From Natrinema pellirubrum DSM 15624 (GTDB taxonomy: Archaea > Halobacteriota > Halobacteria > Halobacteriales > Natrialbaceae), in assembly GCF_000230735.2 (NCBI RefSeq), contig NC_019962.1, positions 310,001-374,000 of the forward strand: a DNA stretch of 64,000 nucleotides, given 5' to 3'. This document shows, piece by piece, positions 2,458 to 18,546 of the stretch (within the stretch, counting starts at the first letter, position 1; each line of letters opens with the position of its first letter). A program made the position numbers and the translations under genes. The notes under the pieces were generated by a model. The model ran no database searches. It was not told the origin of the DNA and saw only the letters and a list, made by a program, of their open reading frames with translations.

Positions 2458-3795
2458 TCAGCGATTGTCAACTATTGTACCGTCTGCCTCGATTTCGCCG
2501 CCGACTTTCGCCCCGGATTCAATCGTTACGTCTCCACCAGCACGGAGAACGACACCATCACCTAGGTCTTCATTACCATCAACCGCCGCCCCATCTCGGA
2601 TAGTTACGTCACCGTCGGCGTCGATATACTCGTCCACTTTCGCCTGATCGTTGATCGTGACCGAATCTCCGGCAGTTATCCTTCCTTTTGCCACGCTCTC
2701 CGGTTCCATCGTCACGCTCCCCGTTTCAGAGATAATATCTCCCTTTATCTGCCGCTCAGAGCCGACCGTTATCTCATCACCAGCAGTTATCGATTGCGAA
2801 ACCTCGGATTTTGCACCGAGATCGATCTCGCCATCGGCGTTAATTGATCCGTCAATCTTACTGCCATCATTCGCAGTCACATCACCTCCTGCATCGATAT
2901 CTCCTGCACCATCTTCAACGACCACGTCACCATTAGTCACAACGTCCTCACCACTAGCTGGGTATGCCGGAGCCGTGACAGTAACCTGCTCGATAAACTT
3001 CCCGTTGGAACCGTACAGTGAGAGGGAGACGTCTTTACCCTCAATGGAAACTGGAGTTCCGATAGTATCCTGAAACCCATATACTCCGACCGTTACCTTC
3101 TCGCCCGAATTCATTTGAACCTTCTTTCGCAACTCTGATATATCGCCGAGTGCCACGTTACTTGCTTCCGTTCCGTCGATTTCGACGTTCTCGATCTCGG
3201 CCGCATCTGCTGCCGTCGTTTCGATGCTGATATACTTTATTTGTGCCTTCTTCTGACCGATATTTTTGAGATCGAACTCGAGTTCGTCGAAATCATCGCC
3301 GAGAGTAGTGGGATTGGAAGTCTCGAAGTCTCCCTTCGTTCCACCAGCACAACTGTATTGGAACGTCATGCTGTGACTGACATCGCGAACTTCTAGCGTC
3401 GATCCGTAGGCATCAGCATCGACTACTACCGTCGCTTCCCCCCCGTTGTTGCCGTCACAAGTCAACTCTACACCTGTGGTCTCTCCTGGGGGAAGAGAAG
3501 AGTCGAATCCACTGCTGATCGCCAGCGATCCACCGCTGTCCTCAACGATGGTCGCTTGAGCCTCGAGTGGATCGTATGCCTCGTTTGCGTTGTTCGTGAT
3601 TTCGACGACGACGGCGTCAGTATCTTTATCGGGTACCTCACCGGTTACCTCAATCCCAACGAGTGCATCGCTGTCTGCCGTGGAGATGTCGGTGGTTCTA
3701 TCGGCTGCTATCGTAGTGAATCCGAAAACAGGACCGTACATCGTCATCACTCCTGTGACGACCAGCAGGAGACCGAGTTTTGCTATTCTGCTCAT
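2458..3795 (-). CDS. secreted polymer-forming (beta-helix) protein with TasA-like N-terminal region
   Basis: A 445-residue exported protein. It starts with a hydrophobic signal segment (MSRIAKLGLLLVVTG). Next comes a beta-rich region of about 270 residues opening with a motif (ADRTTDISTADSDALVGI) shared with the secreted protein at 4531-5064. The C-terminal part (from about residue 285) is a repetitive Asp/Gly/Val pattern of the type GDVxxxDGAxIxGxIxADG, as in polymer-forming (bactofilin-like) beta-helix domains. Bactofilins are normally cytosolic; this one has an export signal, so it would act at the cell surface. It sits 3 nt downstream of an HTH membrane protein gene in the same orientation, and the two probably form an operon. 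Its function is not known. Confidence 0.72.
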   Translation of the reverse strand: MSRIAKLGLLLVVTGVMTMYGPVFGFTTIAADRTTDISTADSDALVGIEVTGEVPDKDTDAVVVEITNNANEAYDPLEAQATIVEDSGGSLAISSGFDSSLPPGETTGVELTCDGNNGGEATVVVDADAYGSTLEVRDVSHSMTFQYSCAGGTKGDFETSNPTTLGDDFDELEFDLKNIGQKKAQIKYISIETTAADAAEIENVEIDGTEASNVALGDISELRKKVQMNSGEKVTVGVYGFQDTIGTPVSIEGKDVSLSLYGSNGKFIEQVTVTAPAYPASGEDVVTNGDVVVEDGAGDIDAGGDVTANDGSKIDGSINADGEIDLGAKSEVSQSITAGDEITVGSERQIKGDIISETGSVTMEPESVAKGRITAGDSVTINDQAKVDEYIDADGDVTIRDGAAVDGNEDLGDGVVLRAGGDVTIESGAKVGGEIEADGTIVDNR

Positions 3796-3798
3796 GGC

Positions 3799-4359
3799 TT
3801 ATGGTGGCCGCTCTAACTCACCGAGTCGCATTCGTCTGTTCTGCATCACATGTGCGATGGATGACACGGCAAACAGCGCAAAGACCAACGTCGCCCATCC
3901 CAGTTTCGGAATCGGCTCCGTCGGAACGACCTCGAGCCACAACCCAGCCATCACGACCGCACCGACCGCCGACAGCCCCAGATAGTAGACCCCCCACGGA
4001 ACCGAATCACCGGGGACGATATCCAGATAGACGTCCAACTCGGCGGCCTCGTCAGTGAGTTCGATCGTTCGATCGTCGAACTCGATGACGTCGGCCCGCT
4101 CGAGCGTGGGGAGGTGGGTCTGCTGTAAGGAGGTGTAGACCCGCTTTCGCTCGGCGGAGGTGATCTCCTCGACTTCTTTCTCGAGTTCCCAGGCGGCGAC
4201 GTGTTCGGCGAGGTCACCCAGCGTGACGGGGCCGTCCTCTCGTTTGCAGTAGTGAATCGCGTACCGGCGTCGCTGGTTGCTCAACAGGTCGAAAATTTCG
4301 CCCTCCCGCGACTGGTCGTCCTGACCTGTCGCTGGTTTGCTCTCGCTGGTTGTCGCCAT
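3799..4359 (-). CDS. winged-helix (DUF7344-type) putative regulator with two membrane helices
   Basis: A 186-residue protein typical of haloarchaeal DUF7344 proteins. Residues about 20-110 form a winged-helix-like domain (EIFDLLSNQRRRYAIHYC, then an alpha/beta wing ending ELTDEA). Two membrane helices follow near residues 125-145 and 150-170. The domain layout suggests a membrane-tethered transcription regulator. It is directly upstream of the secreted polymer-forming protein and presumably shares its transcript. A TATA-like element (TTATGTAT, rc of 4391-4398) lies about 32-39 nt upstream of the ATG, consistent with a very short leader. The target genes are unknown; the neighbouring surface genes are the obvious candidates. 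Confidence 0.82.
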   Translation of the reverse strand: MATTSESKPATGQDDQSREGEIFDLLSNQRRRYAIHYCKREDGPVTLGDLAEHVAAWELEKEVEEITSAERKRVYTSLQQTHLPTLERADVIEFDDRTIELTDEAAELDVYLDIVPGDSVPWGVYYLGLSAVGAVVMAGLWLEVVPTEPIPKLGWATLVFALFAVSSIAHVMQNRRMRLGELERPP

Positions 4360-4530: not shown

Positions 4531-5064
4531 TCACTCACATTGGACGGGAATCTCCCGCTCGAGTTCAACAGTAATTGTTCCATCGCTGGTCTCGAGGTCC
4601 ATCGTGAGATCCGTGCTACTACTTTCCTGGTAACGCCCATCCCAGAGATTAAATCCCGCGTCGCACCGAAGTGTAACCTTGACAATATATTTTCCATTGT
4701 TCATCTGGATATCATACTCTTCGAGTGATGGATAGCCGGCGGCCTCCGCCGAAATATCGAGTCCTGTATCCGTCACCTCGAGTTTCGAGGAGGGGGTGTT
4801 ATCTATTATTCTGATAAGTTCGACATCGGTATATTCATACACGCACTCCACGCTCCAATCATTCCAGATACATTTCCGACTCCCGTCTTCTTTAACTAAA
4901 CTAATCGGTTCTTTTTCAATCCCAACGAGCGCGTCTTCATCGGATGCGGTTTCAACGCCCACTCCTCGATCAGCACTTGTCAGATCGAACGCACCGCTCG
5001 GTGCGGCGAGTACGATGCCACCAATGAGTATCAATCCGAGGCTAAGGGCTGTAAGTGATCGCAT
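4531..5064 (-). CDS. small secreted TasA/camelysin-like protein
   Basis: A 177-residue protein with a clear signal peptide (MRSLTALSLGLILIGGIVLAAPSGAFDLTSA). The mature start ADRGVGVETASDEDALVGIE matches the opening motif of the polymer-forming protein at 2458-3795 and resembles DUF1102-type archaeal surface proteins. It has four cysteines (two close together in CIWNDWSVEC, one in LRCDAG, one near the C-terminus), so disulfides are possible. It lies 128 nt downstream of the C-terminal piece of the interrupted pilin-like gene in the same orientation. It may therefore have been co-transcribed with that gene before the IS insertion. No strong promoter of its own is visible. The role is presumed to be at the cell surface. 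Confidence 0.7.
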   Translation of the reverse strand: MRSLTALSLGLILIGGIVLAAPSGAFDLTSADRGVGVETASDEDALVGIEKEPISLVKEDGSRKCIWNDWSVECVYEYTDVELIRIIDNTPSSKLEVTDTGLDISAEAAGYPSLEEYDIQMNNGKYIVKVTLRCDAGFNLWDGRYQESSSTDLTMDLETSDGTITVELEREIPVQCE

Positions 5065-6531: not shown

Positions 6532-6564
6532 GTCAGGCGAGTTCGTTACCAGAACTCGCCTGAC
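6532..6564. terminator. perfect hairpin enclosing the transposase stop codon
   Basis: GTCAGGCGAGTTC (6532-6544) and GAACTCGCCTGAC (6552-6564) form a perfect 13-bp stem around the 7-nt loop GTTACCA. The transposase stop codon (TTA on the plus strand, 6546-6548) sits in that loop. It may end transcription or limit transposase expression by RNA structure. Confidence 0.6.
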
Positions 6565-7880
6565 TCAACCTGCTCACGTAACCGCGGTCGATGCGGATTT
6601 GGATCACGTGAAGCCCACAGCAACAACTCATCTAAATCCGGAAGTTCGTACCCTAAATCGAGCATCACGTACAACTGAATCAGGTGTGAATGGCGTTCGA
6701 CAGCGTGAGAACATCGTCGACGAGGAAGTTGCGGCGACGACGCTGTGGCGTCGTCGGCGCTTTCCCGTTGTTTCACGTCCAGTTTCCGGAGTTCATCGAC
6801 GATAACACGGCTCATCAGCAGTGAGATTGCGGCCATGATGACCAGAGCTTCGATGATGTACGGATCGGTCGTGTTGATTTCGTCAAGTCCGAAGCGTGAT
6901 TTCAGTTCTTTGAACAATAATTCTATTTCCCAGCGCGCCCGATAGAGCTGTGCGATATCGGGCGCACTATAGTCGTCTTTCGAGAGATTTGTCAAATAGA
7001 GATGGTACTCTTCAGTATCCTCGTTCCAAACACCGACCAGTCGGAACGTTCGGGTCGTGCTGGTGCACGACCCTCGCTTTCGCTCGAACGAGAGGGTGAT
7101 GCGAACATCGATTTCCTGTCGCTGCAGGTCGTCAAGGACGTCCTGCAGCGACTCTCCTTCGAGCGGGATACTGTTCCCCCGCCACGTCCGGAGCTCTTCG
7201 ACGATCTCGAAGTTTGCGTCGTCTTTCACACGGGAGACGAACCAGCCGTTATTCTGGTCGATGCGGTCGAACAACCAGAAGTCGTAGAAACCGAGATCGA
7301 GCAAGACAAGTGCGCCAGCTACCCACTCGCCGGTGGGTAGCTGGCTCCGTTCTTGGGTTTTAGCGTCAGTTGTTCGGTACCGTGTTGGAAGGCCAGTTGA
7401 GAGTGATTCTGTTAGGTGAAGTTTCAGACCGGCCTGATCGTCACCGGTCGCAGCGTACACATCCGCGGCGTCTTGATAGAGAGAAACAATGCTCCCATCG
7501 GCAATGAGGACGTCTCGAAAGCGTTCGAGACGTCCGCTAAGGTCGGCATTTCTGGTATCGAGATTCTCGATGGCATCATCGAGAATCTCTCGAAGGAGTG
7601 CAACGAACGGTGGAGAGAACCACCCGTGGAAGGTTGCATAGGAGAGTTCATCGCAGTCGGACATTTCGACGAATCGTTCGAGAAAAGCCTGTACAGATCG
7701 GTCTGACCCAGCAGCGAAGCCAAGTGAAAGCGTGTAGAACAGCGCAACAGCGTCGAATTTCCGTTCACGCTCGACGAGATTCGTTGCGCGAGCGCGCTCG
7801 CGCAACTCATCGGAGGGAAACGCTCTTTGAATCCGATCAACAATCACTGAATCCGGTGGGGAGTAAGTCACACTATCCAC
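6546..7880 (-). CDS. IS4-family (ISH8-type) transposase
   Basis: A 444-residue DDE transposase that catalyses cut-and-paste movement of the surrounding element. Candidate catalytic aspartates are in VLIADGSIVSLY and VLLDLGFYDFWLFD. The IS4 YREK signature is complete: YRARWEIELLFKELK has Y, then R after two residues, E after three and K after six. The length is normal for ISH8 transposases and there is no frameshift, so it is probably functional. The start appears to be GTG at 7880; the next in-frame ATG is far inside the protein. The reading frame ends inside a perfect hairpin (6532-6564). Confidence 0.93.
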   Translation of the reverse strand: MDSVTYSPPDSVIVDRIQRAFPSDELRERARATNLVERERKFDAVALFYTLSLGFAAGSDRSVQAFLERFVEMSDCDELSYATFHGWFSPPFVALLREILDDAIENLDTRNADLSGRLERFRDVLIADGSIVSLYQDAADVYAATGDDQAGLKLHLTESLSTGLPTRYRTTDAKTQERSQLPTGEWVAGALVLLDLGFYDFWLFDRIDQNNGWFVSRVKDDANFEIVEELRTWRGNSIPLEGESLQDVLDDLQRQEIDVRITLSFERKRGSCTSTTRTFRLVGVWNEDTEEYHLYLTNLSKDDYSAPDIAQLYRARWEIELLFKELKSRFGLDEINTTDPYIIEALVIMAAISLLMSRVIVDELRKLDVKQRESADDATASSPQLPRRRCSHAVERHSHLIQLYVMLDLGYELPDLDELLLWASRDPNPHRPRLREQVESGEFW

Positions 7881-9955: not shown

Positions 9956-10259
9956 CGCATCGTCGTTGAAATATCGTAACCTGGGAGAGAGTTACAAGTA
10001 CATCTTGAGCGATGTCGAACGGCACCAACCGACTGTTGAAGTCCGATGTGAATCGGCTTGGGCGCTTCTCTCAGTAATCTCGAGCAAAGTAGACACTGCT
10101 TGGCGTAAATATACGGTCCCAATATCGATGACGAGCCACGTCACATTTAGGGCTGATTGCGATCGTTCAGGCGATACTTGTGGGCCTCGAGTGTCTGCGA
10201 ACTGCGTTCAGGGGCGTCTTGAACGATCGTATGGCCGGTCTTGTGCCCGCTCTGGATAC
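9956..10259. other. intergenic region between divergent surface genes
   Basis: No supported gene lies between the pilin-like gene on the minus strand and the first TasA-like gene on the plus strand. Short frames on both strands have atypical composition and no start signals. The region presumably carries divergent promoters. Confidence 0.5.
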
Positions 10260-10355
10260 TCAATACAAAGTGGATACGGTTCGTGGGCATGAGTAGGAAC
10301 TGCGTTCCGGCACCCCTCGCGGGGCGGTGCTGGGGCGCGGAACGGAGACCATACC
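10260..10355 (+). promoter_or_regulatory. conserved promoter/leader element of TasA-like gene 1
   Basis: TCAATACAAAGTGG, then ATAC, begins exactly 96 nt before the ATG at 10356. The same 14 bases begin exactly 96 nt before the third paralogue (11701 and 11797). Downstream the leader can form a nested hairpin: CGTTCCG (10303-10309) pairs with CGGAACG (10338-10344), and inside it GCACC (10310-10314) pairs with GGTGC (10326-10330). Equal spacing of the shared motif indicates a common control element. The 14-mer may be the promoter or a regulator site; the sequence does not decide this. Confidence 0.6.
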
Positions 10356-10943
10356 ATGAGAATGAATCGACGCAACGTGTTAGTCGGATTGGGTACGATT
10401 GTCGCTGGCGGTGGCGCTGCACTGGGAACGGGCGCTTTCAGTAGCGTTGAAGCCGAGCGAACAGTAAGTGTTGAGACTGCGGATGACTCGTCTGCGTTTC
10501 TCGCGCTCAGCTCTGCACGTAGCGATGCTGCTTTTGTTAATGAAAGTGATGGTACTGTCCAAATTAATCTTGATGGGACCAGTTCTGCGGATGGTGACGG
10601 TGTCAACCAGAACGCGAAAACCACGCTGGACGAACTCGTCCAAGTAACGAATCAAGGGACACAGACGGTTAACACGCTTACATTCGAATTTAGTGTTGAT
10701 GATACGGATATAAGTCAATCTGCTTCGGATGTCAAAAGTACACTTGGAATTGTCAGCGGTGACGCAACGATTAACGGGGAGGGCGATGATCTTCTGAGCC
10801 AAGGCAGTACGTCTAACAGCCTTGAATCATCTACCTCTATCATGTTCGGCCTTGAGATTGATCTACTTAATTCTAATATCAATAATATTGACGATGGTGC
10901 AGGTATTACTCTCACGATCAAAGCAGAAACAGCGGCGAACTGA
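10356..10943 (+). CDS. Tat-exported TasA/camelysin-like surface protein 1
   Basis: A 195-residue protein with a twin-arginine signal (MNRRNVLVGLGTIVAGGGAA) and a likely processing region at GTGAFSSVEAERTVSVE. The mature part is a beta-rich, Thr/Ser/Asp-rich single domain with no cysteines, of the DUF1102 type. The signal organisation (hydrophobic glycine-rich helix, then GAF-S, then acidic beta-strands) is like bacterial camelysin/TasA fibre subunits processed by SipW-type peptidases. A SipW-like peptidase gene lies 2.8 kb downstream. Translation may begin at 10356 or at the second ATG, 10362. The next paralogue starts 11 nt after its stop codon, so the two form an operon. Confidence 0.75.
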   Translation: MRMNRRNVLVGLGTIVAGGGAALGTGAFSSVEAERTVSVETADDSSAFLALSSARSDAAFVNESDGTVQINLDGTSSADGDGVNQNAKTTLDELVQVTNQGTQTVNTLTFEFSVDDTDISQSASDVKSTLGIVSGDATINGEGDDLLSQGSTSNSLESSTSIMFGLEIDLLNSNINNIDDGAGITLTIKAETAAN

Positions 10944-10954
10944 GGAACATACTA

Positions 10955-11518
10955 ATGAAAAGACGTAGTGTTTTGGTCAGCCTCGGGACGATCGTTGCAG
11001 GTGGGGGTGCCGCGCTCGGAACGGGCGCGTTCAGTAGCGTGGAAGCCGAGCGGACAGTTACCGTCGAAACTGCCGGCGATGCGAACGCATTTCTCGCACT
11101 CACTCCCGCGAGTGGTGCGAGCGATTACGTCGACGACACAGGAGACACCATCGTAATCGATATCAGCGGTAACTCGGAAGGTGCAACTGGTGTCAACCAG
11201 AATTCCCTCACGTCGTTTGACGCACTCGTCACGGTCACGAATCAGGGAACGAACGACGTCGATAGTGTCACGCTCACGATCCAGGGGGACAACGGCGAGG
11301 GCGAACTCCTGACGCCGAACCCGACGAGTTTCGGTGATGGTGATTTCCCCGATAACGGTGATGCGTCCGTGTTAGCGCCCGGTGAGACGGTCTCATTCGG
11401 CCTCGAAATCGAACTTCGCGCGGATCAAATCAACGACACCGTGGCTGCATACGATAACGGCGATATCGACAGCGCCAATTTCGAGCCGACGATTCTGATC
11501 GAAGCGACGACGGCGTGA
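10955..11518 (+). CDS. Tat-exported TasA/camelysin-like surface protein 2
   Basis: A 187-residue paralogue of the protein at 10356. The signal region (MKRRSVLVSLGTIVAGGGAA, then GTGAFSSVEAERTVTVET) is nearly the same, and the motif GVNQNS...VTNQGT is shared at the same place in the mature domain. The mature domain is an all-beta, acidic surface domain. The start is fixed by a GAGG ribosome-binding-like sequence just before the ATG, overlapping the end of gene 1. It presumably forms or caps the same surface structure as its neighbours. Confidence 0.75.
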   Translation: MKRRSVLVSLGTIVAGGGAALGTGAFSSVEAERTVTVETAGDANAFLALTPASGASDYVDDTGDTIVIDISGNSEGATGVNQNSLTSFDALVTVTNQGTNDVDSVTLTIQGDNGEGELLTPNPTSFGDGDFPDNGDASVLAPGETVSFGLEIELRADQINDTVAAYDNGDIDSANFEPTILIEATTA

Positions 11519-11796
11519 CGAACTCGGGAATCGAACGCGACCCTTGTATTCATCGAGCCGTTCGTCGCAGTTCTCTCGACGGTGACGAGAGATACGTTTC
11601 GCCGCCTTGGGGCGGGTATTTCTCACACGACCTCACGCGATATTCGGGTTCAATGACGGCCTGAAGGTGGTATCGCCGACTATTCGACCGTTCTGCTCGA
11701 TCAATACAAAGTGGGTACAGTAATGAGAGGTAGGTAGAAGGTCGGTCGGTACTCCATGCCTTCGGGTACCGGCAGAGACTACATGGTGATCATACA
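11519..11796 (+). promoter_or_regulatory. intergenic region with conserved leader of TasA-like gene 3
   Basis: No gene is seen here. The motif TCAATACAAAGTGG at 11701-11714 matches the one at 10260-10273 and lies at the same 96-nt distance from its start codon. A hairpin with CGGTAC pairing with GTACCG lies in the leader. The third gene therefore seems to have its own promoter under the same control as the first pair. Confidence 0.55.
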
Positions 11797-12396
11797 ATGT
11801 CAATGAACAGACGAAATGTGTTGCTCGGACTCGGAACGATCGTCGCCGGCGGTGGCGCTGCGCTCGGTTCGGGCGCGTTCAGTCAGGCAGAAGCACAGCG
11901 GTCGGTTAGCGTTTCCCTTGAGGGCGACTCGAGCGGGTTACTCCGGCCCACTGTTAACGACGGTGACTACGAAGGAGTCGACAGCAATACCACGACAGAA
12001 AGCGACAATGGGAGCGTCAGCATCACGCAGATCAATTTCGTCGGTATCAACGACGAATCCGTGTTCGCTTTCGATGACGTTCTAACGATTGGCCTCCAAG
12101 ATGAAAGTGGCAACGAAGTCAGTGGGACCTTCGATATCAGTATCTCCACTGATTCTGGTAGTGTCGCAGTCTACAGGGATAGCTTCCCCACTGATGGATC
12201 TCGTGGCGACGTGACGGATGCCGAACTCGGAACAATCTCCGCTAGTGACTCCGGCTCAGCTACAGACGGTTCAAGCGTTTCCGCTGGTATTGCTATCAAC
12301 ACGAATTCAACTAACAGTGATGATCGATTCGATGGTACACTGAATGAGGATAGTACCGCCGATATAACCATCACTGCTCAGCAGCAGGACTCCTGA
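11797..12396 (+). CDS. Tat-exported TasA/camelysin-like surface protein 3
   Basis: A 199-residue paralogue with the Tat signal MSMNRRNVLLGLGTIVAGGG, then GSGAFSQAEAQRSVSV. The mature domain diverges more from the other two. It contains a segment LTIGLQDESGNEVSGTFDIS and a Ser/Thr-rich C-terminus. Like its paralogues it has no cysteine and no C-terminal anchor, so it would be released or assembled outside the membrane. It has its own upstream element identical to that of the first gene. Confidence 0.73.
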   Translation: MSMNRRNVLLGLGTIVAGGGAALGSGAFSQAEAQRSVSVSLEGDSSGLLRPTVNDGDYEGVDSNTTTESDNGSVSITQINFVGINDESVFAFDDVLTIGLQDESGNEVSGTFDISISTDSGSVAVYRDSFPTDGSRGDVTDAELGTISASDSGSATDGSSVSAGIAINTNSTNSDDRFDGTLNEDSTADITITAQQQDS

Positions 12397-12503: not shown

Positions 12504-13643
12504 ATGCTATCGTCACGAATGCTACTCGTCATGGCCGCCGTCTGCTTTCTGTTTACGCTCGCGATTCCGACGGCGGCACTGACGGTCGGGGAAGACGAGA
12601 CGTCGGACGAGGTCGTCCTCGAGCCGACGAGCAGTTACGCGGAACTCGACGAGTCGAACGAACTGTTCCTCGACTTCGACGGGTTCAACGGGAACACGGC
12701 GTTCGTGACTCGAGACGTGTTCACGATCGCGGTCGGTGAGGATGCCGACGATATCGAGTCAGTCTGGATCGAACACGATGTCGAGGGCGTGGCCTTCTAC
12801 GCGGACGGGAGCGAGATCACTCCGGAATCGCGACTCGAACTGTCCTCGGGCGACTCTCAGACCGTGGATGTTACCGTCGATACCCACGTCGCCAAATCGA
12901 CGACCGAGACGTTCACGGTCGTGGTCGAGTACGAGGGTGACGAAGTCGATGATGACCGTGGCAGCGACTCCTTCATTTACGGCTCGAGCCTATCCGTCTC
13001 GTCGACGACCGTCGAGGCGGGCGAGACGGTGACGGTCAACGCGACCTACCGCAACGACGGCGACGGGTGGGGGACCGAGACGGCCCGGCTGACGGTCGAT
13101 GGGACCGTCGTCGACCGGCGAACGGTCGCCCTCTCGTCGGGCGAGGAACGGACCGTCAGCTTCGAGCGCCGGATGGAGTGGCCCGGCACCTACGAGGTCG
13201 GGATCGAGGGAGTCGGGTACCAGTCCGTGACCGTCGCGGGCCCGCAGGTCGAGGTCTCGAGCGCTACTATCGACGACGCCACGATCACCGCCGGCGAGAC
13301 CGCGGATGTCCGGGCGACGGTCCGAAACCCGTCCGACAGGCGGATCGAGCGTACGCTCGAGCTATCGGTCGACGGGATCGTCGTCGATACCCGCACCGTT
13401 TCGATCCCGGCCAACGGCGAGCGGACGGTCACGTTTCAGCGAGCGTTCGACGAGCCGGGAACCTACGCGATCGCGGTCAGCGGCGTCGACGCGGGGACGG
13501 TGACGGTCGAGGAGCGGGCCGGGTTCGACATCCGGAACCGCGAACTGTCGCCGATGACGACGGCGGCGCTCGCGCCGCCGGCGACGGCCGGATTGCTGTT
13601 CCTGGCGATCGCTGCGAACCGGCGCTGGTCGTTCGTCCGGTAG
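12504..13643 (+). CDS. membrane-anchored surface protein with DUF1102-like and CARDB-like domains
   Basis: A 379-residue protein with a Sec-type signal peptide (MLLVMAAVCFLFTLAIPTAA). An N-terminal domain of about 120 residues resembles the neighbouring TasA-like proteins (FVTRDVFTIAVGEDADDIES). Two CARDB-like beta-sandwich repeats follow at about 160-250 and 250-335 (VSSTTVEAGETVTVNATYRN and VSSATIDDATITAGETADVR). A C-terminal membrane helix near 350-370 ends in basic residues. It would stay in the membrane facing outward. A role as cell-side anchor or chaperone for the fibre-like subunits is an inference from order in the cluster. Confidence 0.72.
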   Translation: MLSSRMLLVMAAVCFLFTLAIPTAALTVGEDETSDEVVLEPTSSYAELDESNELFLDFDGFNGNTAFVTRDVFTIAVGEDADDIESVWIEHDVEGVAFYADGSEITPESRLELSSGDSQTVDVTVDTHVAKSTTETFTVVVEYEGDEVDDDRGSDSFIYGSSLSVSSTTVEAGETVTVNATYRNDGDGWGTETARLTVDGTVVDRRTVALSSGEERTVSFERRMEWPGTYEVGIEGVGYQSVTVAGPQVEVSSATIDDATITAGETADVRATVRNPSDRRIERTLELSVDGIVVDTRTVSIPANGERTVTFQRAFDEPGTYAIAVSGVDAGTVTVEERAGFDIRNRELSPMTTAALAPPATAGLLFLAIAANRRWSFVR

Positions 13644-13754: not shown

Positions 13755-14933
13755 ATGACAAACTCGACGCTCGTCACGCGGGGGCTCGGTGCCCTCCTCG
13801 CGCTGGTCGTCATCCTCCTGATAGTCGGCCAGCTGCTGGGCCAGCCGATTCTGCTCGGCTACGTCGCGACCGGCAGTATGGAGCCGGAAATCGACGCTGG
13901 CGACGGCTTCGTCGCCGTGCCAAGCGTCGCCGCCGGCTCGGTCGAGGAGGGGGACGTGGTCGTGTTTCAGGCACGGGATCTCAACGGCGGCGGGCTGACG
14001 ACCCACCGCGTCGTCGACGAGACCGAAGAGGGGTACGTCACGAAAGGGGACGCCAACCCCTTTACCGATCAGGACGGCGGCGAACCCCACGTCACGGAGG
14101 GACAGATCGTCGCCGAAGCCTGGCAAGTCAACGGGAAGGTCGTGACGATCCCGCATTTGGGTACCGCGATCATGGGGTTCCAGAGCGCTGCCCAGGGTGG
14201 CGTCGAGACGGTCACGTCGGTGTTCGGCGTGACGACCGGCTCCTCGAACGGGCTCGGTGCCTTGCTGGTCGGCGTCGGGGTCGCGATGCTCGGGTTCGGA
14301 ACCCTCCTCGAGCGGCTCGGGCCGGGCCGCCGTGAGACGAGCAGGTCCCGCTCGCGGGAGAACGTGATCGCGTTCTGGACGGCGCTGGGCCTCGTCTTGC
14401 TCGTGTTCGTGACCTTCGCGACCGCGGCGATGGTCGTCCCGTCGGGCACTACCGAGTACGGTCTCATTAGTTCCGAGTCGCCCACCGACGATCCACAGAT
14501 CGTCGCGCCCGGCGAAACGTCGGAACTGACCCGGACGGTTGACAACGCCGGCTACCTGCCGATCGTAGTCGCTCACGAGGCCGAAAGCGGCGGAATCGGC
14601 GTCGAGCCGCGGTCGCAGACGATCGGGATCCGTGACAGCGGGGAGGCGACGGTAACGCTGTCGGCACCCGAGCAGACGGGCGAGTACACGCGTCATCTCG
14701 GCGAGTACCGGTATCTTGCCGTGTTGCCACCATCGGTACTGCTCTGGCTCCACGGCCTCCATCCGCTCGCCGCCATCGCGGCGGTCAACGTCGTCATCGT
14801 CGGGATCGCGGTCGCGATCGTACTGCTGCTGTTCGGCAGCGACGATATCCGCGTTCGGTCTGCGGGGAGTCACGTCCCGCTGTCGACCCGTCTCAAGCGT
14901 CGCGCTCGCCGCTGGTTCCGTGATTGGAAATAA
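13755..14933 (+). CDS. SipW-like S26 signal peptidase with extra C-terminal membrane domain
   Basis: A 392-residue membrane protease. The first 130 residues hold an archaeal/ER-type S26 catalytic core: a membrane helix (residues 8-30), the nucleophile S41 in GSMEPEIDAGD, the general-base H84 in TTHRVV replacing the bacterial Lys, and the box KGDANPFTDQD. Such SipW-type enzymes remove signals from exported fibre proteins such as TasA. The protein is about twice the usual length. After the core come two more helices, an outward beta-domain (about 240-315) and a final helix near 320-355 with a basic tail. Its place after the TasA-like genes suggests they are its substrates. Confidence 0.85.
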   Translation: MTNSTLVTRGLGALLALVVILLIVGQLLGQPILLGYVATGSMEPEIDAGDGFVAVPSVAAGSVEEGDVVVFQARDLNGGGLTTHRVVDETEEGYVTKGDANPFTDQDGGEPHVTEGQIVAEAWQVNGKVVTIPHLGTAIMGFQSAAQGGVETVTSVFGVTTGSSNGLGALLVGVGVAMLGFGTLLERLGPGRRETSRSRSRENVIAFWTALGLVLLVFVTFATAAMVVPSGTTEYGLISSESPTDDPQIVAPGETSELTRTVDNAGYLPIVVAHEAESGGIGVEPRSQTIGIRDSGEATVTLSAPEQTGEYTRHLGEYRYLAVLPPSVLLWLHGLHPLAAIAAVNVVIVGIAVAIVLLLFGSDDIRVRSAGSHVPLSTRLKRRARRWFRDWK

Positions 14934-15095
14934 CGTTTCGTTGTTGCAAATACCACGGAAAGGCCACTATCCTTATAGTGGTCTGTTTCTTTCACTTAGT
15001 CATGTATTGTCCCGAAGGCCGACCAGTTCGGCCCCGATCGGCTCGTACGGAGCCGAGTGGTCGACTGGCCGGCCGGGACACCGGGGGACACAGGG

Positions 15096-16280
15096 ATGAC
15101 CGATAACCCGCGTCTCGAGTTGCTGTTGGCCAAGCACGGTCGGACCATCGTGATCGCACTGATCGCGGTCGGCGTGCTGTCGATCGCCGCGACGGGGTGG
15201 GCCGTCGCCAATCCGGAAACGACGACCGCCCCACAGTACACCGAGGAACGCGTGACGACCGACGGGAGTACCAGCGCCGTCGTCACCGAGAGCGGGACGC
15301 TGTGGACGGAGGGGCAGCGACTCTCGGACAGCTCGGTCTACTTGCTGAACGCGACGCCGGAGCTGACGATCGAGGCCGAAACCCGACTACGAAACGAGAC
15401 CGGCGGGGCCCCCGTCGAGTCGGGGGACGTGACACACGAACTGGGACTGCGCTTCCAGGCGACCCGTGACGGCTCGCCGTTCTGGAACGAGACGACGACG
15501 GTGTTGCGCGAGTCGCCGTCGGTCGAGAACGGCGTCGCTACGTCGAACGCGACGATCGACGTCGAATCCTACCGCCGACAACAGCGCCAACTCGAGCGCG
15601 AACTCGGCGGGATCGGATCGGTCGAACTGGCCGTAGTGCTTCGCACCGAGTACGATACCGGAACCCATCAGGGGACGCTCACGACTACCGCCCCGATGAC
15701 GATCACCGACGAAGCCTACTGGCTCGAGGGCGAACTGTCGGAGTCGACGCCACATCGCTACCGCAGCGGGACCGAGCGGACGACCACGTCCCGCAGTCCG
15801 GCGATGATCGGCGGCCTGTCGCTGCTGGGGACCCTGTCGCTCGCCGGCGCGGCACTGGTCGTGCGCCGCTCGCCGGGCGACATCGAGGCCGCCCGCCGGG
15901 CGCTTCACGAACGGCGCTACGCCGAGTGGATCTCGCGGGGATCGATCCCGATGTGGATCGGCGACTACCACGTCTCGCTCGATACGCTCGAGGACGTCGT
16001 CGACGTCGCGATCGACACGAACGAGCGCGTCGTTCACGACACCCAGCGCGGACTGTTCGCGGTGGTCAACGACGGCGTGGTCTACTACTACAGCGACCGC
16101 GGGCTCTGGGAGGAGACCGCGTGGCCGGAGATGGACCTGGAGGCGAGTCCGGCCGTCATCGACGGCGACGGCGACCTTCCCACGCAGGATCTGTCGGAAC
16201 TCGACACGAGCAACGAGTTCGCCGCGCCCGACGACCCAGACGGGTTCGAGGACGACGAAGAGGTCTGGGAACAGCTCTGA
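15096..16280 (+). CDS. DUF5305-type membrane protein of the surface cluster
   Basis: A 394-residue protein with an N-terminal membrane helix (residues about 17-37) and an outward region of about 200 residues rich in beta-strand (YTEERVTTDGSTSAVVTESG). A second helix follows near 245-265, then a cytosolic tail of about 125 residues that ends very acidic. This matches the DUF5305 layout, a family often found beside S26 peptidases in haloarchaea; the family name is from recall. The ATG at 15096 (MTDNPRLELLLAKHG) was preferred over an upstream ATG at 15057 because the extra residues are Gly/Pro-rich. The function is unknown. Confidence 0.72.
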   Translation: MTDNPRLELLLAKHGRTIVIALIAVGVLSIAATGWAVANPETTTAPQYTEERVTTDGSTSAVVTESGTLWTEGQRLSDSSVYLLNATPELTIEAETRLRNETGGAPVESGDVTHELGLRFQATRDGSPFWNETTTVLRESPSVENGVATSNATIDVESYRRQQRQLERELGGIGSVELAVVLRTEYDTGTHQGTLTTTAPMTITDEAYWLEGELSESTPHRYRSGTERTTTSRSPAMIGGLSLLGTLSLAGAALVVRRSPGDIEAARRALHERRYAEWISRGSIPMWIGDYHVSLDTLEDVVDVAIDTNERVVHDTQRGLFAVVNDGVVYYYSDRGLWEETAWPEMDLEASPAVIDGDGDLPTQDLSELDTSNEFAAPDDPDGFEDDEEVWEQL

Positions 16281-18071: not shown

Positions 18072-18221
18072 CGTCTCGTCCCGTTGATTCCCGTCTTTTT
18101 TGACGCGTTTCGATCGATCGGTGACGACACGCATATCAGCCGCTGTAGCGACTCACGGGGCACTTTACTCGACGATATATATAGAATCCTATCGTAGTTC
18201 GATCCGGGGTAAGGCTCAACT

Positions 18222-18227
18222 TTTATA
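18222..18227 (+). promoter_or_regulatory. TATA box of the winged-helix regulator gene
   Basis: TTTATA in the context CAACTTTTATACTG lies 26-31 nt before the ATG at 18253. The transcript is therefore probably leaderless. Confidence 0.65.
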
Positions 18228-18252
18228 CTGCTGGGGCCTTTCGAATCGTAAT

Positions 18253-18546
18253 ATGGCAGAGACCGACGGGGAGGAAATCGAAGACTTGCCACCGAGCGCG
18301 AAACTCGTCTTCAAGGTTCTCGAGTACGACGGGCCGCTGACGCAGAAACAGATCGTCGAGGAATCGATGCTCTCGGCCCGGACGGTACGGTACGCGCTCG
18401 AGCGCCTCGAGGAGATCGGGATCGTCGACGAGGACATCTACTTCGCTGACGCCCGTCAGAGCCTCTATCGGCTCGAGGAACCGGTCGCCGCCGACGGTAA
18501 CGGCGTCGAGGAGTCCCCGAAAAAGGACGCCTGCTGCGCGGAGTAA
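18253..18546 (+). CDS. small MarR/TrmB-like winged-helix regulator
   Basis: A 97-residue cytosolic protein. Residues about 12-75 form a winged helix (SAKLVFKVLEYDGPLTQKQI, recognition helix SARTVRYALERLEEIG, wing ending YFADARQSLYRL). The C-terminal tail is acidic and ends KKDACCAE with a vicinal cysteine pair, which could sense metal or redox state. The ATG at 18253 is set by the TATA box at 18222. The gene is on its own between an acyl-CoA synthetase and a small membrane protein. Its target is unknown. Confidence 0.82.
   Translation: MAETDGEEIEDLPPSAKLVFKVLEYDGPLTQKQIVEESMLSARTVRYALERLEEIGIVDEDIYFADARQSLYRLEEPVAADGNGVEESPKKDACCAE

Follow-up and report, generated by a model that had tools for sequence, protein, structure and literature searches.

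In Sulfolobus acidocaldarius, the archaellum promoter is controlled by the membrane-bound one-component regulators ArnR and ArnR1 together with conserved ArnR boxes (PMC6396743). In Pyrococcus, the palindrome TCTG-N5-CAGA that belongs to TFB-RF1 lies just upstream of the B-recognition element (BRE; PMC5937170), while GvpE is associated with a 20-nucleotide (nt) upstream activating sequence in the gas vesicle promoters of haloarchaea (PMC8241225). Finally, semi-palindromes upstream of the TATA box of the sptA promoter in Natrinema sp. J7-2 act both positively and negatively (PMC6085418). We propose that a comparable arrangement serves a set of pilus genes in Natrinema pellirubrum DSM 15624. It lies in a stretch of 64,000 nt (contig NC_019962.1, positions 310,001 to 374,000 of the forward strand), which at its full length we call the window and in which all positions are counted, and its most conspicuous part is the 14-base element TCAATACAAAGTGG, which occurs ahead of two genes for relatives of the Tafi pilin.

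As the first-pass annotation of this DNA had reported, the 14-mer begins at 10260 and at 11701, each time 96 nt before an ATG (10356, pilin-type gene 1; 11797, pilin-type gene 3), and a search of the whole genome of 4,354,100 bases returned just these two exact copies, with about 0.03 copies per genome expected from a uniform-base estimate. On the sequence evidence assembled here, the 14-mer is the visible core of a larger conserved promoter unit, which in 5' to 3' order comprises the inverted repeat TTCAAG-N5-CTTGAA, a TTCTGG block, the box AATACAAAG, the block GAGTA, usually a hairpin leader, and the ATG. We interpret this unit as a real, family-wide and dedicated promoter of Tafi-type pilus genes, for which a membrane-anchored protein of the DUF7344 family is a plausible candidate regulator. 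The annotation's general idea, namely that a promoter, a regulator site or a structured leader is under selection, was sound in that all three are present; the 14-mer itself, however, is best read as the core promoter, and the regulator site as a separate inverted repeat farther upstream, which had not been listed. The features concerned are the following:

10207..10223, no strand assigned: distal inverted repeat TTCAGGGGCGTCTTGAA of promoter 1, predicted operator, 38 base pairs (bp) from AATACAAAG
10250..10255, + strand: half-site-like block CTCTGG (consensus TTCTGG), just upstream of box 1
10260..10273, + strand: 14-mer TCAATACAAAGTGG, copy 1, interpreted as core promoter 1; its box AATACAAAG occupies 10262-10270
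10291..10297, + strand: conserved block GAGTAGG, putative transcription start region, from conservation
11649..11665, no strand assigned: distal inverted repeat TTCAATGACGGCCTGAA of promoter 2, predicted operator, 37 bp from AATACAAAG
11691..11696, + strand: half-site-like block TTCTGC, upstream of box 2
11701..11714, + strand: 14-mer TCAATACAAAGTGG, copy 2, interpreted as core promoter 2; its box AATACAAAG occupies 11703-11711
3799..4359, - strand: candidate regulator, a DUF7344 protein (PF24035, 105 bits) in which a winged helix is followed by two predicted membrane helices

The model that we consider probable, though not strongly so, is that of a pilus-operon core promoter with upstream dimer sites bound by a DUF7344 activator, giving rise to a transcript that starts at GAGTA and carries a hairpin leader. 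The 14-mer would provide the core promoter box at the TATA position of the pilus operon, two such promoters lying in the window. A dimeric protein would bind upstream of it, strongly at TTCAAG-N5-CTTGAA and in addition at TTCTGG directly upstream of the box, and the membrane-anchored DUF7344 protein from the same locus would occupy these sites from a single face of the helix. By recruiting basal factors to a box that deviates from the consensus of haloarchaea, it would act as a dedicated activator of Tafi-type pilus genes. The RNA would start about 29 nt downstream of AATACAAAG, and the stem-loop with which its leader usually begins would leave the ribosome site free while probably protecting the 5' end or tuning translation. 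It is from sequence that we infer the start site, the binding of DUF7344, activation over repression and the role of the hairpin. Still more tentatively, and with considerable doubt, one may conceive of the DUF7344 proteins of haloarchaea as a family whose members are membrane-anchored one-component switches, each reserved for one pilus locus. Located in the membrane close to the export machinery, such a protein would bind half-sites placed at two-turn steps that end at a non-consensus TATA box; the assembly state of the pilus would be fed back to pilin transcription, and paralogous loci would have a regulator-operator pair of their own. The model would give DUF7344 a predicted DNA target and function for the first time, and would offer a concrete, testable scheme for the control of haloarchaeal Tafi pili, whose structure was solved recently; in the collection of papers searched, none dealt with Tafi pili, archaeal Taf proteins or DUF7344.

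By analogy, the pilus promoter would work like the ArnR, TFB-RF1 and GvpE systems, and we claim membership in none of them. DUF7344 resembles ArnR in having, according to its structural model, an N-terminal helix-turn-helix and two C-terminal helices, whose membrane location is predicted from sequence, and in both cases the promoter of a surface-filament gene carries conserved upstream boxes. ArnR, in contrast, has a HAMP and a sensory domain where DUF7344 shows only its own Pfam domain, the archaellum is another type of filament than the pilus, and the binding of DUF7344 is here a prediction. With TFB-RF1 our promoter shares a palindrome with an N5 spacer that precedes a weak core promoter by a conserved distance and is kept across relatives, and the target lies beside the regulator, in our case the candidate one; the difference is that the palindrome of TFB-RF1 adjoins the BRE, whereas in our promoter 37-58 bp separate the strong repeat from the box and TTCTGG alone lies nearby. 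GvpE is likewise a dedicated haloarchaeal activator of a structural operon, with a site upstream of BRE and TATA and with leaders that affect expression; the position of its site is different, and any likeness to DUF7344 would be one of function. The position of our palindrome upstream of the box fits activators of the TFB-RF1 or GvpE type. The sptA promoter shares the genus, has other sequences and shows effects of both signs; because its semi-palindromes act both ways, control at the pilus promoter may be of either sign. The genes behind the promoter, for their part, encode relatives of the pilin of the Tafi pilus of Natrinema sp. J7-2 (Protein Data Bank (PDB) 9p0a), a structure entry that is silent on regulation.

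The conservation, spacing and linkage of the unit are observed well beyond the window. At no more than one mismatch, the 14-mer is found in 27 of 29 genomes of the genus, at 35 places in total. Of these, 33 adjoin a gene of the pilus locus (a pilin-type gene in 32 cases, a CARDB gene at G007:C5:48676), and the remaining two, both in G003, lie outside it; a pilin-type gene is preceded by the element in 26 of the 29 genomes. The motif, whose scatter at random positions the first-pass annotation had named as a sign against selection, is thus concentrated at the pilus locus. When two mismatches are allowed, the 14-mer and a reversed control pattern each occur at six places in the N. pellirubrum genome, so only the exact copies stand out there. 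Among 32 leaders of the genus the distance from the 14-mer to the ATG ranges from 89 to 103 nt (in L015 it was counted to the second ATG, since the first, at 79 nt, reads through the leader). A fixed spacing of 96 nt was accordingly rejected: the equal spacing that had been emphasized is true of both window copies, but their exact agreement is partly chance. Aligned, the 32 leaders display the conserved blocks TTCARG-N5-CTTGAA, GTATnGC, TTCTGG, CTCAATACAAAGTGGGT and GAGTARGAAC, the last at offset 31 from the start of the 14-mer and containing the putative start site; the 14-mer was the selection criterion for this alignment, and its own conservation there is partly circular, that of the other blocks is not.

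The distance between repeat and box is similarly constrained. We assembled 84 promoters in which the box agrees with AATACAAAG at 8-9 of 9 positions and a pilin open reading frame (ORF) follows, and took the best repeat anywhere upstream. The repeat lies 37/38 bp from the box in 65 of them and 57/58 bp in 17, and the two exceptions are both starts of a single locus (L089), where the repeats are weak; a repeat score of at least 9 is reached by 5.9% of shuffled upstream sequences. In loci fetched by protein similarity alone, box and repeat were present at 27 of 30 and 22 of 23 starts, always at 37/38 or 57/58 bp, and the four starts lacking them are second genes of operons. A scan of all available species genomes gave, for the strict composite in 30 archaeal-grouped loci, gaps of 37 (6), 38 (15), 47 (1) and 58 (11) bp only, those of bacterial matches being scattered from 42 to 59. 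With steps of about 10 and 20 bp, the repeat and the box keep their rotational relation around the helix, and the step of two helical turns between the main spacings is as expected for a protein that would bind one face of the DNA. Between repeat and box, the best match to the half-site matrix is TTCTGG at -12 from AATACAAAG at both main spacings (22 and 13 non-redundant promoters); it is equalled by 0 and 3 of 719 column-permuted matrices at the same place and by 10 and 3 at any place, and lies 42-43 bp, or about four helical turns, from the distal half-site. In the 58-bp class (11 promoters) the best half-site match is a CTTGAA-like site at -22, equalled by 1 of 719 permuted matrices at the same place and by 11 at any place. 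A middle operator site in the 38-bp class was not significant, given that 681 of 719 permuted matrices reach its score somewhere.

The strict repeat TTCARG-N5-CTTGAA has 27 distinct sites in the 29 genus genomes, 25 of them at a pilus promoter. Being found almost exclusively at one locus, and at spacings a whole number of helical turns apart, such an operator would make a clean system for the study of archaeal activators at non-consensus promoters, and papers on genetic tools exist for the genus. In the order as a whole, the composite TTCA-N8-YTGA-N33..62-AATACAAA matches 64 of 392 genomes and its reversed control 4; all but 8 of the 64 belong to the window's family, which contributes 96 of the 392 genomes. 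A scan of the family found the composite in 68 of 125 genomes and the control in 2. Two of the eight matches outside the family look genuine, having a pilin-type gene downstream or near (G413, with L086 and L244, and G348, whose sequence is also in L241). Between distal repeat and box, L241 and L244 carry extra TTCAAG words about 21-22 bp apart, in the manner of an operator array, and L244 has a second full inverted repeat there.

In a few loci the leader is short. In L300 the box lies 38 nt before the ATG and there is no hairpin. In L067 (G035:C7:72754-72871) two divergent promoters share a single repeat, whose distance is 38 bp to the box of a pilin gene with a hairpin leader and 47 bp to that of a CARDB gene with a short one; counted from the first base of the 14-mer before this CARDB gene, GAGTA again lies at offset 31 and the ATG at 47 nt, and a hairpin is absent. 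The promoter is thus the basic unit, as the hairpin is missing where the leader is short, and both cases fit a predicted core promoter with a start near GAGTA. A scan for sigma-70-type promoters was discarded as uninformative for archaea. Extra promoter copies directly before CARDB genes instead of pilin genes were seen at G007:C5:48676 and G109:C1:2187745.

In the candidate regulator at 3799-4359, DUF7344 is the only Pfam domain above cut-off. Its model (predicted local distance difference test, pLDDT, 79) is a winged helix with C-terminal helices at 122-141 and 152-176, which are predicted to lie in the membrane from an alignment of 35 sequences; its best Foldseek matches are winged-helix regulators at E values of 0.03 and above, and a search of PDB sequences gave no match up to E 0.1. 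Orthologs (at least 265 bits, the next best scores being at most 210) occur in 85 of the 125 family genomes, and 83 of these 85 have the promoter: 67 in the strict pattern, 15 as variants, and G027. The two that lack it, G003 and G049, have neither a pilin gene beside DUF7344 nor a box there, and near DUF7344 one repeat-like word was found in L281 and none in L283. Among the 40 genomes without an ortholog the strict pattern occurs in one (G046), at a place without a pilin ORF; variants were sought in the ortholog genomes only. DUF7344 is divergent from and adjacent to the promoter in several genera, it was recovered by blastp in L160, L165 and L178, where ORF calling had missed it, and outside the family a relative of 46% identity sits beside the same repeat (L244). 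Its paralogs (40-53%) adjoin pilin and signal peptidase genes at other loci in six of eight regions inspected. Four such loci (L305-L308, in G018, G001, G007 and G026; paralogs of 40-48% identity) share a common but different promoter, CGTATTACAATA or CTGTATTACAATACCCC, as expected if each DUF7344 regulator should have a site of its own. The core of that promoter reads TATTACAATACCC or TATTACAATATCC, its leader is a near-perfect palindrome around GATCCCCGCGGCGGGGATC, and the words upstream are GGTTGACC- or GTTGACC-like. G021 contains two partial DUF7344 copies (query residues 58-185, 69% identity) and yielded neither the 14-mer nor the composite nor a pilin match, as if its regulator were in decay once the locus had been lost.

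The leaders of the two window promoters contain the following elements:

10300..10340, + strand: leader hairpin of pilin gene 1, predicted fold, pairing CUGCGUUCCGGCACC with GGUGCUGGGGCGCGG
10344..10348, + strand: GGAGA, left unpaired by the predicted fold; possible ribosome-binding site
11734..11782, + strand: leader hairpin of pilin gene 3, predicted fold
11785..11791, + strand: GGTGATC, possible ribosome-binding site, from sequence

GGAGA may be a Shine-Dalgarno sequence, and GGTGATC may be complementary to 16S ribosomal RNA. That both leaders can fold into hairpins had been noted before; the CGGTAC/GTACCG stem of gene 3 is as described, whereas the CGTTCCG/CGGAACG stem of gene 1 is not the lowest-energy fold, its place being taken by the CUGCGUUCCGGCACC/GGUGCUGGGGCGCGG stem. 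Compared with shuffles, the gene 1 leader folds with a z score of -4.3 and that of gene 3 with -1.2, which is not significant alone. Over 63 unique leaders, taken from GAGTA to the ATG, the mean z is -2.25, with 34 of the 63 below -2; among controls, upstream stretches of equal length have a mean of -0.12 and coding starts of +0.73. An RNAalifold analysis of the MAFFT alignment of the leaders yielded zero pairs. As the stems are too diverged for sequence alignment, we folded leaders with swapped halves, using 23 representatives of less than 75% identity. Native leaders reach -23.3 kcal/mol and swapped halves -18.1 (Wilcoxon p 4.8e-7), and 112 of 692 chimeras fold as well as native leaders. When sequences were split at the midpoint, the native-minus-swapped difference was -4.6 for leaders (p 7e-7), -0.2 for upstream sequences (p 0.64) and +1.0 for coding starts, where the native is worse (p 0.04). 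Because native halves fold better than swapped ones, the two arms of the leader change together, which bears out the compensatory changes that the first-pass annotation had suggested seeking in relatives. The covariance models of Rfam 15 gave no matches up to E 1 in window positions 10150-11900. The leader is probably a 5' stem-loop that would stabilize the mRNA or tune its translation.

Several observations weigh against the model and have to be set beside this evidence. Haloarchaeal core promoters are described as having the TATA motif TTWT and the BRE motif CGAAA (PMC4983044), and both are absent from the conserved block TACTCAATACAAAGTGG; the box AATACAAAG would thus resemble a core promoter by its position only, and the departure of AATACAAA from these motifs would suit an activator-dependent promoter, as for TFB-RF1. 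The strict repeat alone is no commoner across the 29 genus genomes than its reversed control, and as the two are about equally frequent it is the position of the repeat that is meaningful, not its number. Folding of the sense strand is not significantly better than that of the antisense strand (13 of 23 representatives, p 0.12; 47 of all 63 leaders). DUF7344 and the promoter share one island, so that joint presence and loss are expected and their co-occurrence is weaker than it looks. Finally, two of 20 promoter regions, L163 and L171, have no DUF7344 within the fetched 20 kilobases by blastp, and a copy elsewhere would have to act there in trans.

These last two regions would be accommodated if the promoter and operator were as proposed and the repeat were bound by another regulator, be it the winged-helix protein encoded at 18121 or an unlinked factor, with DUF7344 doing something else in the locus. 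This winged-helix gene (18121-18546), the second of the locus, is likewise found close by in many relatives, but it is missing from some of the 20 regions. DUF7344, for its part, goes together with the promoter in 83 of the 85 family genomes that have an ortholog, is divergent and adjacent in several genera, and has a relative beside the same repeat even outside the family; we regard this alternative as possible yet rather unlikely. It is a shade less likely still that DUF7344 binds the operator as a repressor and frees the pilus operon upon a membrane signal. The semi-palindromes of sptA in the same genus include a negative element, and a TTCTGG adjoining the box would fit a repressor too. 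The same source (PMC6085418), however, places archaeal repressor sites usually over BRE/TATA or downstream, and our strong repeat lies well upstream. The structured leaders with their compensatory changes could also mean that the 14-mer is itself an RNA regulatory element inside an mRNA leader, transcription starting farther upstream. This we consider highly improbable, and an RNA element as the primary entity was rejected, on account of the short leaders of L300 and the L067 CARDB gene and of upstream sequence that folds no better than shuffles; the Rfam search points the same way. A recent duplication of gene plus leader, which the tandem paralogous genes downstream might suggest as the sole reason for the identical copies, we credit with next to no probability, since conservation of box, repeat and spacing across genera, while the intervening sequence changed, refutes it.

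Returning to the pilus locus that the proposed activator-dependent promoter would serve, the genes of the operon are:

10356..10943, + strand: pilin-type gene 1, by protein homology
10955..11518, + strand: pilin-type gene 2, 11 nt after gene 1, without a box or repeat of its own
11797..12396, + strand: pilin-type gene 3, by protein homology
12504..13643, + strand: CARDB protein gene of the operon
13755..14933, + strand: archaeal signal peptidase I gene (TIGR02228), by profile match
15057..16280, + strand: DUF5305 gene

The tandem pilin-type genes are paralogs, and their products are homologous to the pilin in PDB entry 9p0a, 'Structure of Natrinema sp. J7-2 Tafi pilus' (E 1.3e-49 by profile; E 1.4e-22 for pilin 1 alone). 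They do not reach the NCBIfam cut-off of 155 for TafE (83.4, 75.4 and 62.1 bits) and score about 50 against the TafA cut-off of 190. For the model of pilin 1 (pLDDT 66), the best structural Z scores are 9.4 with archaeal bundling pili, 8.7 with Tafi, 8.3 with the Sulfolobus thread and 6.4 with TasA. 'TasA-like', as these genes were first called, may be a fair name for the predicted fold and is no statement of membership; unrelated folds come near a Z of 7. The order of pilin, CARDB, signal peptidase and DUF5305 genes is largely kept in 20 regions from relatives (12 from the genus, 8 from other genera), on whose other flank the genes for ABCE1, EMC6 and DUF7344 are found.

A few minor observations concern the same island. 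A DDE transposase gene (6546-7880, - strand) lies within it, between the DUF7344 side and the pilin side. The genes at 2458-3795 and 4531-5064 (both - strand), which adjoin DUF7344, have weak NCBIfam TafC/TafE matches, and the protein of the former also has a weak bactofilin match. The pilins starting at 10356 and 11797 are far better conserved over their initial 30 residues (RRNVLxGLGTIVAGGGAALGxGAFS) than elsewhere and have a twin-arginine-like start, and one pilin gives a weak match to the TAT_signal_seq model.

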